Positions 30,582 through 34,014 of a stretch of DNA of 64,000 bases are shown one piece after another. Under the pieces are notes generated by a model. The model searched no databases. It was given only the letters and a program-made list of their open reading frames with translations, and had not been told where the DNA came from. Source of the DNA: Marinobacterium stanieri (GTDB taxonomy: Bacteria; Pseudomonadota; Gammaproteobacteria; Pseudomonadales; Balneatricaceae); assembly GCF_900155945.1 (NCBI RefSeq), contig NZ_FTMN01000006.1, positions 124,001 through 188,000 on the forward strand, read 5' to 3'. Both the position numbers and the translations under genes were made by a program. Position 1 is the first letter of the stretch, and each line of letters opens with the position of its first letter.

Positions 30582-32285
30582 TCAGACGCCTTTAGCCAAA
30601 CGCCGGTAAAGCTCAGCTGGAAATGCTTCTGCCTTCATTCGCTCCACTACCGGTTCATAGTCATAGGGCAGAGATTTGAAACTGACTTCGTTTTTCACCG
30701 GATCATAGAGTGCAAACTGTGCCTGCGGAGTGCCATTACGAGACTGTCCGATAGACCCCGGACAGACCAGACACTGGGCAAAGCTTTCCAGAGAAATCAC
30801 CTCACCCACCCTGTGACGATCCTGCCCCTCCAGATCACGCCCATACAGCCCCGGCATATGGGAATGGCCGTGGAAACAGAGACGGCGGTTCAGAGCTGTC
30901 AGCTTGTCCAGATTTTCCCGGTAGGTCATTTCATAGACATAACCGTAAAAAAACTCCGGGTCCAGGGGCGCTCCGTGGACTGCCATCCAGTCATCATTAT
31001 CCAGCACCGGAGGCAACGCCTTGAGCCATCCCAACTGCTCCTCGGATAACTGTGCATTCGTCCATTCAGCCACATGGCGTGCGTGCTTGGACAGGCCTCG
31101 CTCATAAGCTCCCAGTGCAATGCAGTGATCATGATTGCCCTTGATGATGTGGAAATTGGATGCCCTCATCAACTCCACAACCTCTCTGGCATCAGGCCCG
31201 TAACCAACCAGATCACCCAGCACGATTCCTTGAGAAACATCGTTTTGCTCCAACCACTCGAGCACAGCACTTAGCGCCGGCAGGTTGGCATGAATATCAG
31301 CCAACACAGCCAACGGTTGCTGATTAATCAAATCTTGTTTGCTCTGGCAAGCAGAACTCCGGGTCGAAAATGGATCAGTTCCCTGCACACTGGCTGCCGG
31401 CCGGGATACATCTGCGGGAGTGTCTGCCGATGTCACAGCAACTGCTGGAGCACTGGAAGCGGGCTCATGAACCTTACCCAGTGTGCAATCAGAGAGCTTG
31501 CCAGGCGCATTCAGCGTGGCACAAATAAGATTGGCAATATCACGCTTTTTGCCTGCAGGCATAAAGGCTGAACGGAGCTGGTAGGCGATACTGGCTCTGT
31601 AGTTAAGATCACCGAAAATATGATCAACCTGCTGCCCAAGTTCTGTTGCAAGGGTACGGGCAAAGTCACGGTCCAGCCACTCCAGTTTACGGATCATGAC
31701 CCCCAGCATCACCGAGAAGGAAATGAACTTGTCCCAGGGGTAGGTTTCATCGTCGACGTAGAACAGACGATCATTTGCATCCAGCGCGAAGTTGGACAGG
31801 CCTTCATCAAGCTTGAGCTGGCAACGCTCGGCCGTCTGCAGGTACATCTCAAACATGGACGTCATTTGTCGCAGTAAAACACGACGCGCATTTTCTGTAT
31901 CAGGCCGAACTTCCAGCAGCTTGTGCAAGGGACGCAGCCTGGGCGTAATATTTCCGATCAGCACCTCTTCAGAAAGATCGATGGCGCCGTCGCGTTCTAT
32001 ATAGATGTAAAACCAGGTCTTCTCAGGGTGGTACACCCCCAATTGGCGCTCCCGTTCCAGCACCTTGCCCAACCAGGGATCGGCCTGCGCCGCCGTCAAT
32101 TTCAGATCCCGGCGAATTTTGACCACAGTGTCACGATTCGCATAGATATTGGTTTCGGGGCGCCCCGTGAACTCGCTGTTATGCGCCAGTGCTGTCGAAC
32201 CCTGCTTGATGGCATCACTAATCTGTGCAGGTCCAAAGCCTGCCCGCCCCTCTAGCGCACCGATAATTTTCAGTTTTTTTTTCAC
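30582..32285 (-). CDS. Fusion of a kinase-like domain with a C-terminal metallophosphoesterase
   Basis: 567 residues in two halves joined by a Ser/Ala/Pro-rich linker (about 270-322). The C-terminal half (325-545) is a calcineurin-like phosphoesterase: DIH at 330-332, GDLVGYGPD with D358, GNHDH at 383-387, H438 in AVHGAP and HGHSH at 472-476, so all metal-ligand motifs are present. The N-terminal half resembles protein/aminoglycoside kinase folds: K56 in TVVKIRRD, a catalytic-loop-like D160-xxxx-N165 (LDEGLSNF), and an acidic D178/D179 (FYVDDE) at the spacing expected for metal binding. That assignment is inference from motif spacing. The gene lies downstream of the Roadblock gene, separated by a strong terminator. 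Substrates are unknown. Confidence 0.8.
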   Translation of the reverse strand: MKKKLKIIGALEGRAGFGPAQISDAIKQGSTALAHNSEFTGRPETNIYANRDTVVKIRRDLKLTAAQADPWLGKVLERERQLGVYHPEKTWFYIYIERDGAIDLSEEVLIGNITPRLRPLHKLLEVRPDTENARRVLLRQMTSMFEMYLQTAERCQLKLDEGLSNFALDANDRLFYVDDETYPWDKFISFSVMLGVMIRKLEWLDRDFARTLATELGQQVDHIFGDLNYRASIAYQLRSAFMPAGKKRDIANLICATLNAPGKLSDCTLGKVHEPASSAPAVAVTSADTPADVSRPAASVQGTDPFSTRSSACQSKQDLINQQPLAVLADIHANLPALSAVLEWLEQNDVSQGIVLGDLVGYGPDAREVVELMRASNFHIIKGNHDHCIALGAYERGLSKHARHVAEWTNAQLSEEQLGWLKALPPVLDNDDWMAVHGAPLDPEFFYGYVYEMTYRENLDKLTALNRRLCFHGHSHMPGLYGRDLEGQDRHRVGEVISLESFAQCLVCPGSIGQSRNGTPQAQFALYDPVKNEVSFKSLPYDYEPVVERMKAEAFPAELYRRLAKGV

Positions 32286-32307
32286 ATCAGTCCCATTTTT
32301 TCAAAAA

Positions 32308-32335
32308 CCAAAAAGAGCAGCCATCCGGGCTGCTC
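32308..32335 (-). terminator. Intrinsic terminator between Roadblock and kinase/phosphatase genes
   Basis: On the minus strand, GAGCAGCC, five bases, then GGCTGCTC make a perfect 8-bp stem followed by TTTTT. It lies between the Roadblock gene stop and the start of the downstream fusion gene, so the latter depends on readthrough or on its own promoter in about 22 bases of T-rich DNA. Confidence 0.88.
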
Positions 32336-32357
32336 CTGGTGAAGGGGTAAGGATTGA

Positions 32358-32768
32358 TCAGGACGGGCAATACTCTGCAATATGCGGCAGGTTAATTCGA
32401 ACGGCTGACCAGCCCATACCCAGGTTGGTATTTCGGCTGGTGATCAGCACAACCAGAGAATTGGGCTTCTCGGGCACAACAGCCATAAAGTGGTAGGTTC
32501 TCTCCGTGCTCATTTGCACTTCCTGAATCATATGGCGAACCGGTTGGCCACGCTGATTGGACAGAAGCGACTCTACCGCTCGCACATTACGCCCACGCAT
32601 CATATCAACAGCAGCTGCCGCCACGGCTTCGAGATAGGAAGAAGTAAAGTAAGGAACGTTGTGCGCAACTGACAACAGCAATCCACTTTCCAAATCAACG
32701 ACAGCGCACCCCAGAGCACCATCCACATCATTCACAATATTCTGTAACAGGTCATCCAGCTTAGACAT
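32358..32768 (-). CDS. Roadblock/LC7-domain protein
   Basis: 136 residues, one Roadblock/LC7 domain: an N-terminal helix (SKLDDLLQNIVNDVDG), then the strand ALGCAVVDLESGLLLS, a central helix around SSYLEAVAAAAVDMMRGR, and strands RTYHFMAVVPEKPNSLVVLITSR. MglB-like proteins of this fold dimerise and act on small Ras-like GTPases, or serve as scaffolds. No GTPase with a P-loop is encoded nearby. It follows the (EP)-linker gene on the same strand by about 40 bases and is probably cotranscribed with it. Confidence 0.88.
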   Translation of the reverse strand: MSKLDDLLQNIVNDVDGALGCAVVDLESGLLLSVAHNVPYFTSSYLEAVAAAAVDMMRGRNVRAVESLLSNQRGQPVRHMIQEVQMSTERTYHFMAVVPEKPNSLVVLITSRNTNLGMGWSAVRINLPHIAEYCPS

Positions 32769-32811
32769 AGTATTTCCGACTCAACATTATGGACTCAGGG
32801 TGGTAATTCCC

Positions 32812-34014
32812 TTACCCCCTGATTTTGTGTAACAGGCGCCCCCAAAGACCTTTGGGCTTTTCGGGCGCCAGCTCTTGCAGCGTCTCCAATTCAGGCTCAT
32901 CAAGCAGTAACCCTTCATGGTGGCAGGCTTCGACAAAGGAGGTGATTTGGCCAATGGCGATTCCCGTTTCCGCTGCTATTTCTGACAGGGAAGCTCTTTT
33001 GGCACGCATAAATGCCGCCAACTTCAAATGGTCACGGTGAAGCCCGGGGAGTTCGTTCCCGGGCCAGGCTCCAAGGACATAGGCATCGCTTTCTGCATCT
33101 ATATCCAGACTGCCCACATTGGAGTAGAGTGCAAGAAACCATTTCAGATTACTCAGCGGCCTCTCGATATACCCCTGCTTGCTTACACCTGTTTTAAATT
33201 CATGTTTATCCTGAACTGAAAAACAGGAAACCTTATTGTCTCTTCCTTTCGAAATAAAACTTTCAACTTCGACACTTGAGTAATAGCGCTCTTGATTAAA
33301 ATCAATCATTAAAATATCGCCAGACTGCAACACTATTTTGCAGTATTCGGCATCAGCATCGAGTGAGTGCAGATAATGAGTAATCGCATCAAGCCAAGGC
33401 AACTTGCTGTTACTGCCCCTGGATTCATCAACTATCCTGGTGGCTGCTGGGTTTTCGGCAGCGGGTAAGCTGTCGTCGTCAACCGGCATGAGCGTCGGAA
33501 TAAGACTGGCGTCAGGAATCACCATCTGTGGCTCAGATGCGTTTACTTCAGACCTCGGCTCTGGCTCTGGCTCTGGCTCTGGCTCTGGCTCTGGCTCTGG
33601 CTCTGGCTCTGGCTCTGGCTCTGGCTCTGGCTCTGGCTCTGGCTCTGGCTCAACAGAATCCTGTTCCGAGACACGCTCTACCCATGTAAACACCTGATTC
33701 AAAACACAAATCAAGTCAGAAATAAAAGGAACGTTGTTGCTGTCGACACGAAGGCAAAACAATTCACTTCCTTGCCTGGGAAAAACCTCTGTGCTTTCCG
33801 CCTTGCCGTAAAGAACCCAGGCATGCGCTTGTATGTTCGGCTTTTGATCTACACTTCCACCGGAAAAACAAACATCTGCACTATCTGCCTGTTCCAGATA
33901 CATCCAGCTGGCATCAAGCCTTACTTCAGCCAGTACCAGAACTGAAAGCAACTTTTCCTTGTCTTCCTCCGATAACCCTTCAATTAAAAAGGTTATTTCC
34001 TTCTTTGGTTTCAT
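32812..34014 (-). CDS. Unknown protein with perfect (EP)16 linker and C-terminal winged-helix-like region
   Basis: 400 residues, no signal peptide or membrane segment. Residues 1-118 look like an alpha/beta domain (EITFLIEGLSEEDKEKLL, HAWVLYGKAES) of no family I can name. Residues 122-153 are sixteen consecutive Glu-Pro pairs. Residues about 200-320 form a second folded region (CKIVLQSGDILMIDFNQ). Residues about 335-372 (MRAKRASLSEIAAETG, then a helix before HHEGLL) resemble a winged helix-turn-helix. The C-terminus is basic (GLWGRLLHKIRG). It is the first gene of the Roadblock locus, in AT-richer DNA than its neighbours. Function is unknown; a scaffold or adaptor for the Roadblock protein is inference from position only. 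Confidence 0.75.
   Translation of the reverse strand: MKPKKEITFLIEGLSEEDKEKLLSVLVLAEVRLDASWMYLEQADSADVCFSGGSVDQKPNIQAHAWVLYGKAESTEVFPRQGSELFCLRVDSNNVPFISDLICVLNQVFTWVERVSEQDSVEPEPEPEPEPEPEPEPEPEPEPEPEPEPEPEPRSEVNASEPQMVIPDASLIPTLMPVDDDSLPAAENPAATRIVDESRGSNSKLPWLDAITHYLHSLDADAEYCKIVLQSGDILMIDFNQERYYSSVEVESFISKGRDNKVSCFSVQDKHEFKTGVSKQGYIERPLSNLKWFLALYSNVGSLDIDAESDAYVLGAWPGNELPGLHRDHLKLAAFMRAKRASLSEIAAETGIAIGQITSFVEACHHEGLLLDEPELETLQELAPEKPKGLWGRLLHKIRG
33557..33651 (-). repeat. Perfect tandem hexanucleotide array, 15.8 copies
   Basis: The unit ggctct (+ strand; GAGCCA-phase on the coding strand) repeats without a single mismatch over 95 bases. Each unit encodes Glu-Pro. A unit of six keeps frame, so slippage would change linker length by two residues per step, not switch the gene off. 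Confidence 0.97.

Follow-up and report, generated by a model that had tools for sequence, protein, structure and literature searches.

In bacteria, Roadblock proteins are most often regarded as partners or GTPase-activating proteins (GAPs) of Ras-like GTPases. What does such a protein do where the GTPase is missing? The question is raised by a locus of Marinobacterium stanieri, for which we analysed 64,000 nucleotides of contig NZ_FTMN01000006.1 (positions 124,001 to 188,000 of the forward strand; hereafter the window). Three genes on one strand (window positions 30582-34014) encode a protein with an (EP)16 linker (C1), a stand-alone Roadblock/LC7 protein (RB) and a protein in which a kinase-like domain is fused to a metallophosphoesterase (KIN-MPE). 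A sequence-only reading of the window had described this set, and the open reading frames (ORFs) and the perfect repeat bear out its gene count, strand and linker; it had also proposed an uncharacterised module in which phosphorylation and dephosphorylation replace a GTPase switch. We arrive at a different answer, which we hold at slightly better than even odds (a probability of about 0.53): the locus derives from a Group 3 MglA system whose GTPase was lost, with an MglC-like RB adaptor linking C1 to KIN-MPE.

Absence of the GTPase and its history

No P-loop GTPase is encoded within the three-gene locus, as had been noted from the sequence, and the absence extends to the genome. Whole-genome searches with a profile of the GTPase family gave nothing at E<0.01 in M. 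stanieri (G000, the window genome), M. marinum (G024) or M. weihaiense (G026). The best E value there was 0.03, versus 1e-78 to 2e-55 for the three GTPases of an uncultured Marinobacterium (G108), which the genome collection places in another genus of the family. Likewise, Pfam ATP_bind_1 found nothing over its cut-off in the same three genomes (best score in G000 17.7 bits, cut-off 27). G000 is 98.7% complete in 24 contigs, so that a gap is possible for one genome and less so for three. Since both searches were empty, a move of the GTPase to elsewhere in the genome was rejected.

In the relatives the GTPase is present. G108 carries one of its three copies in the RB locus itself (L039), beside RB, and M. 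halophilum (G021) has one, in a separate C1-GTPase-Roadblock locus. The sequence-only reading had held that a GTPase consistently linked to this Roadblock family elsewhere would speak against it, and this is largely what we found: 16 of the 17 class genomes with RB have a GTPase of the family, and it adjoins RB in the sister locus L039/L079. Seen from the GTPase side, 65 of the 369 class genomes have the GTPase, 16 of them together with RB. A Roadblock family that never had a GTPase was therefore rejected, given the GTPase beside RB in the sister locus and the 16 genomes; its occurrence in the relatives' loci and genomes marks the GTPase-less state as a secondary loss. In the RB tree (135 columns used, 19 forks open), the four GTPase-less Marinobacterium copies form a clade (99/90) with the GTPase-bearing L079 as sister (100/95); in the simplest reading, the GTPase would have been lost once on the Marinobacterium branch. 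L079 has no RB2, the second Roadblock protein of many relatives, nearby, so RB2 was probably lost before the GTPase.

We also rejected, as a general rule, that RB loci without a nearby GTPase lie in GTPase-free genomes: 19 of the 20 genomes tested have one. These were 17 genomes without a GTPase in the examined stretch (some stretches reaching contig ends), that of L104 (GTPase about 4 kb away), and those of L088 and L106 as positive controls. The exception, L081/G492, is a 1.9 Mb metagenome-assembled genome (MAG) of unknown completeness in which no GTPase was found. In this Methylococcaceae MAG, RB and KIN-MPE stand behind a sigma-54-type activator-like gene (L081 1-3281), and RB places next to Marinobacterium in the tree (89/90), which may point to a transfer event between methanotrophs and Marinobacterium.

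A second Roadblock locus of the window genome, L075 (G000:C17:14500-34000), lies at 6575-10228. It encodes a C1-like protein of 421 aa (weak C1 profile matches), a PF03259 Roadblock protein of 120 aa and, by eye, a 210-aa Roadblock-like protein, a PAS protein and a PhnD-like binding protein; the GTPase profile gives no match in L075.

Conserved neighbourhood and co-occurrence

That the three genes belong together, as originally supposed, is strongly backed by their neighbourhood and co-occurrence. Among 80 named loci, we kept the 53 in which RB has flanks of 4 kb or more in both directions and left out 27 with short flanks. Within 4 kb of RB these 53 well-flanked loci have KIN-MPE in 38 cases, the GTPase in 33, C1 in 33 and RB2 in 29; overlapping profile matches were resolved by bit score, and some of these loci had themselves served to build the profiles, so that their neighbourhoods match by construction. 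The usual order in distant relatives is C1 - GTPase - RB2 - RB, with KIN-MPE adjoining RB on either strand (same strand 21, opposite 17, of the 38). The P-loop and the GTPGQ motif of the GTPase family are invariant in 11 aligned sequences. KIN-MPE was found beside RB in Gamma- and Zetaproteobacteria.

KIN-MPE lies within 4 kb in 31 of the 33 well-flanked loci that have the GTPase within 4 kb of RB. It thus did not arise to replace the switch but predates the loss, and the idea that phosphorylation stepped in for the GTPase had to be given up.

The link between RB and KIN-MPE goes beyond shared neighbourhood. Counting RB as present at E<1e-30 (17 genomes; 11 weaker of 28 at E<=0.01 are not counted), and KIN-MPE as full-length if the match spans both domains above 500 bits (14 of 46 matching class genomes, 5 of 36 family genomes), we found full-length KIN-MPE in 14 of the 369 class genomes, every one of which belongs to the 17 RB carriers (Fisher p about 1e-22, which overstates independence as the genomes are related by descent). 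The other KIN-MPE matches start at model position 230 or beyond, in or near the phosphoesterase half. In the family, five of the 116 genomes have full-length KIN-MPE, and RB is found in exactly these five. RB and KIN-MPE sit on different contigs in three genomes (G147, G292, G399), so their association is not merely one of shared neighbourhood.

A C1-type protein, MglA and one or two MglB homologues were defined as Group 3 MglA systems in 2014 (PMC4316618), so the module is in part a known one. Our locus resembles these systems in its C1 protein (predicted receiver-like N-terminus, linker and winged-helix-like end), its MglB homologue and its conserved neighbourhood; it differs in that the GTPase is missing and KIN-MPE is present, a protein that the main text of PMC4316618 does not include (0 occurrences of 'phosphatase' and 'metallophos' there). 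Set against Group 3, the MglA-family GTPase with GTPGQ is absent from locus and genome. The one or two MglB homologues are represented by one Roadblock-fold protein without the aspartate of the Asp-Gly (DG) pair. For the receiver (REC)-like/linker/winged helix-turn-helix (HTH) protein, C1 is homologous by neighbourhood and alignment, with a weak HTH match and the N-terminal Asp lost.

Other arrangements around RB were seen as well. A 530-aa protein adjoins RB in L054 (8757-10355, without Pfam match), L055 (6323-7924), L053, L152 and L154; KIN-MPE is absent in L054 and L055 and present too in the other three. Tandem pairs of RB occur in some Thiotrichaceae and Mariprofundaceae/Zetaproteobacteria (L109, L110, L118, L134, L147), and these five loci have none of GTPase, C1, RB2 and KIN-MPE within 4 kb. 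The Methylococcales loci L097 (2099-2491) and L104 (9772-10164) carry a second RB copy of a distant type (25% identity). RB is also found on contigs labelled as Phycisphaerales and Bacteroidetes MAGs (L145, L149); L145 groups with Marinobacter, which may reflect transfer or a binning error.

The Roadblock protein

RB has no match to Pfam Robl_LC7 even at E<=1. The stand-alone Roadblock protein read from the sequence is nevertheless borne out: the predicted model is confident (predicted local distance difference test, pLDDT, 93.4), and its top structure matches in the PDB are Roadblock/MglB proteins (E about 1e-8, template modelling (TM) score about 0.7). By this model, RB is of the Roadblock fold. 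When a profile of 69 RB relatives was compared with PDB sequences, the sole match below E 1 was Myxococcus xanthus MglC (7ct3, whole-sequence E 2.3e-4; next match E 1.2). Aligned to RB2-type proteins by profile comparison, RB gave a match of only 40 columns (probability 31%, E 5e-4).

An Asp-Gly pair is common to the MglB proteins of Groups 2-5, and its Asp is predicted to sit close to MglA (PMC4316618, section 15). RB lacks it. At position 28, none of 63 RB rows (the 69 aligned rows minus six of another Roadblock clade) has Asp (S 45, T 14, N 3, C 1), versus 48 of 48 distinct RB2 sequences. The string 'DG' occurs in one of the 63, as VDG upstream of the position 28 column.

RB is under strong purifying selection. 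Among its nearest named relatives, identity to the window copy is 97% in M. marinum, 94% in M. weihaiense, 93% in M. halophilum and 88% in the uncultured Marinobacterium. Among the four GTPase-less copies (93-97% identical), nonsynonymous divergence (dN) is 0.016-0.044 and synonymous divergence (dS) 1.3-3.0, that is, dN/dS is about 0.01-0.03, an approximate value since silent sites are saturated. Such low dN at saturated dS indicates that, at least where no GTPase of that family is left, some other constraint maintains RB. RB probably fulfils a GTPase-independent function, and these Marinobacterium species form a natural GTPase knock-out with RB hardly changed, in which its role without the GTPase is directly testable.

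The kinase-phosphoesterase fusion

The KIN-MPE model has two confident domains with a disordered linker between them (residues 265-317, pLDDT below 50). The two halves of the fusion claimed by the sequence-only reading fared differently. The phosphoesterase is complete: Pfam Metallophos_2 matches at 2.1e-13 and PDB 3rqz at E 4e-21, the calcineurin-type motifs DxH...GD...GNHD...H...GHxH are present with metal-motif residues invariant in 58 sequences, and the best 50 PDB structure matches listed for KIN-MPE are phosphoesterases. In fold and metal motifs this half resembles Sphaerobacter 3rqz and SapH 3qfm, an asymmetric Ap4A hydrolase; here, in contrast, it shares a polypeptide with a kinase-like domain and is associated with a Roadblock protein.

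For the N-terminal half, PDB sequences gave no match at E<=10, and a Pfam scan of the 58 KIN-MPE members matched no kinase family. It is predicted to be kinase-like from three lines of evidence. K56, E79, D160, N165, D178 and D179 are invariant in 58/58 sequences, and we take them to be the Lys-Glu pair, the catalytic Asp with its Asn, and the DFG-like Asp of the kinase pattern. The predicted elements follow the kinase order. Finally, Foldseek against a viral library lists kinases among the KIN-MPE matches, at low TM and with a root-mean-square deviation above 10 A, the aligned range not being stated.

KIN-MPE gives Group 3 systems a definite candidate enzyme. Its tight association with an MglC-like Roadblock protein and the survival of the set without a GTPase are, as far as we have seen, new; among the hits of open-licence full-text searches we recognised no paper on an RB-type Roadblock protein with a kinase-phosphoesterase.

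In Candidatus Competibacter phosphatis (L125 9462-10858), KIN-MPE is in several reading-frame pieces, either broken or affected by sequencing error. In a sister Roadblock clade (RB about 30% identical), a fusion of an ABC-type ATPase with a dual-specificity-type phosphatase adjoins GTPase and Roadblock genes (L060 8496-10377, L057 8298-10209, L059, L061; assigned by Pfam for L060 and by BLAST cluster for the others). That is, another phosphatase fusion accompanies Roadblock systems.

The C1 protein

The (EP)16 run of C1 is exact (residues 122-153); C1 of M. marinum, M. weihaiense and M. halophilum (RB loci L036-L038) has no such run. A winged-helix-like end had been proposed for C1 from its sequence. 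This agrees with the architecture predicted for the family in 2014, namely a receiver-like N-terminus, a variable linker and a winged-helix C-terminus (PMC4316618, section 18); the direct match is weak, with Pfam giving an IclR-type HTH at E 0.16 in the window C1 and in 2 of 44 relatives (best E 0.0014). By family membership, the N-terminal domain is predicted to be REC-like. The C1 profile searched against the PDB returned mainly designed TIM barrels, plus weak matches. At the C-terminus, L390, R397 and L398 are conserved in 32, 33 and 35 of the 41 other relatives; three Marinobacterium rows entered this alignment, and the C1 of L077 was left out.

Proposed mechanism and competing explanations

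In the ancestor, C1 would have stood together with a GTPase of the Ras-like type, KIN-MPE and the MglC-like Roadblock protein RB, often joined by a canonical Roadblock protein of the MglB type (RB2). The Marinobacterium branch would have lost the GTPase and kept RB, C1 and KIN-MPE, RB2 being already missing from the sister locus. RB, probably a dimer, would act as an adaptor and not as a GAP: it may dock on the C-terminal tail of C1, by analogy with MglC on the C-terminal helix of RomR, and bring KIN-MPE there. The kinase and phosphoesterase halves would then control the phosphorylation of C1 or of a small molecule, and the winged helix of C1 would convert this state into transcriptional output.

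This docking model draws on the RB-MglC match, the RomR-like build of C1 and its conserved tail. In M. xanthus, the C-terminal helix of RomR is a binding site for MglC but not for MglB, and RomR is described as a REC domain, a Pro-rich linker and a Glu-rich C-terminus (PMC12719032). The likeness lies in MglC being the best PDB sequence match of RB and in the predicted REC-like domain, Pro/Glu-rich linker and C-terminal tail of C1 (PMC12719032, PMC7949163). The present system differs in having neither MglA nor MglB and in the winged-helix-like domain of C1. We know of no KIN-MPE counterpart in the M. xanthus polarity module. A Roadblock gene left after GTPase loss has a parallel in the actinobacterial conservons with lost mglA, which differ in being histidine-kinase-based (Group 2) and in having another Roadblock group; the same section states that no 'orphan' MglB had been characterised as of 2014 (PMC4316618, section 14).

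Several observations weigh against our reading. The MglC match of the RB profile is weak (E 0.086 in its best single stretch), and in the structure search with the RB model MglC ranks 18th (TM 0.60), below MglB chains (TM about 0.70), so that structure comparison does not single out MglC. The six rows of the other Roadblock clade, some in GTPase loci, are likewise without the Asp. In Methylovulum-type loci and L079, GTPase and RB occur with no RB2 nearby; as the sole local Roadblock protein beside the GTPase, RB may serve it there. The sole GTPase-free genome among the 17 with RB is the window genome. None of GTPase, C1, RB2 and KIN-MPE lies within 4 kb in 12 of the 53 loci, and three of the 17 RB genomes (G477, G293, G354) are without KIN-MPE. 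C1 is only 38-57% identical among the four GTPase-less copies (dN 0.36-0.67); the conserved Asp of its N-terminal domain, present in 27 of 41 relatives, is absent from the three Marinobacterium rows and L079; and in the Marinobacterium tails (all with a Trp) R397 is replaced by K, K and S, and L398 by I. C1 may therefore be decaying in Marinobacterium, as this fast divergence, the lost Asp and the altered tail suggest. Finally, the terminator-like hairpin between RB and KIN-MPE (Table 1) may uncouple KIN-MPE transcription and speaks against a simple three-gene operon; seven terminator-like sites were found in the region versus a mean of 4.5 in shuffled sequence.

Three other explanations were weighed. 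RB might be a regulatory subunit of KIN-MPE alone, with C1 a mere neighbour, as the unlinked co-occurrence of RB and KIN-MPE (G147, G292, G399) and the loci with both and no C1 within 4 kb (L093, L096, L104, L139) would suggest; we consider this rather unlikely, given that 33 of 53 loci have C1 no more than 4 kb from RB and that all four Marinobacterium copies retain it. It could also be that RB still acts on a GTPase in trans, MglA having been replaced by a divergent Ras-like protein or some other cellular GTPase. RB is indeed little changed from that of GTPase-bearing relatives (88% identity to L039/L079), M. halophilum has its GTPase in a separate locus, and the window genome has a second Roadblock locus. 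However, that locus is without a GTPase profile match, and the profile and ATP_bind_1 searches of G000, G024 and G026 described above make a replacement in trans unlikely.

The least probable account, to which we give little credence, is that the locus is on its way out after the GTPase loss, its remaining genes being passengers. The fast evolution of C1 with its lost Asp and the absence of RB from 4 of the 8 sampled genomes of the genus fit such decay, but the dN/dS of RB does not, nor does KIN-MPE (dN 0.21-0.31 among the four GTPase-less copies, conserved catalytic residues intact), and four species keep the same three genes with the same neighbours as far as the contigs reach. We therefore favour the GTPase-less descendant of a Group 3 system. 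More tentatively, and short of an even chance, the conserved job of RB may not be GTPase control at all, RB being an MglC-like adaptor between a REC/winged-helix regulator and a bifunctional kinase-phosphatase and staying functional, under very strong selection, in species devoid of any MglA-type GTPase.

Layout of the locus

The locus is flanked by a succinate-CoA transferase gene on one side and an MgtC/DUF4010 gene on the other. The same flanking genes surround the locus in M. marinum and M. weihaiense; in M. halophilum one flank agrees and the contig ends on the other side.

Table 1. Features of the C1-RB-KIN-MPE locus, in window coordinates
Feature	Position	Strand	Description
C1	32812..34014	(-)	400 aa; ORF, relatives in conserved neighbourhood, alignment, family architecture published for Group 3 MglA systems
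RB (c0)	32358..32768	(-)	136 aa; Roadblock/LC7 fold by predicted model, MglC-like by sequence, without DG aspartate
KIN-MPE (C3)	30582..32285	(-)	567 aa, GTG start; predicted kinase-like domain and calcineurin-type phosphoesterase
(EP)16 linker of C1	33556..33651	(-)	hexanucleotide repeat, 15x GAGCCA and 1 GAGCCG
Winged-helix-like segment of C1	32926..33021	(-)	residues 332-363; weak IclR HTH match
C-terminal tail of C1	32815..32853	(-)	family pattern GLxxxIxxRL, here KGLWGRLLHKIRG; candidate docking helix
Kinase-like domain of KIN-MPE	31500..32285	(-)	residues 1-262; candidate catalytic residues invariant 58/58
Metallophosphoesterase domain of KIN-MPE	30585..31322	(-)	residues 322-567; Pfam, PDB match, metal motifs
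Terminator-like hairpin, T-rich tail	32313..32337	(-)	RB / KIN-MPE intergenic
C1-RB gap	32769..32811	(-)	43 bp; GTPase occupies the same place in sister locus L039, in other relatives also RB2

A further hairpin with seven G-C pairs (30548-30566) lies between the convergent KIN-MPE and succinate-CoA transferase genes. It has a T run on the + strand only and is thus terminator-like for the transferase gene.

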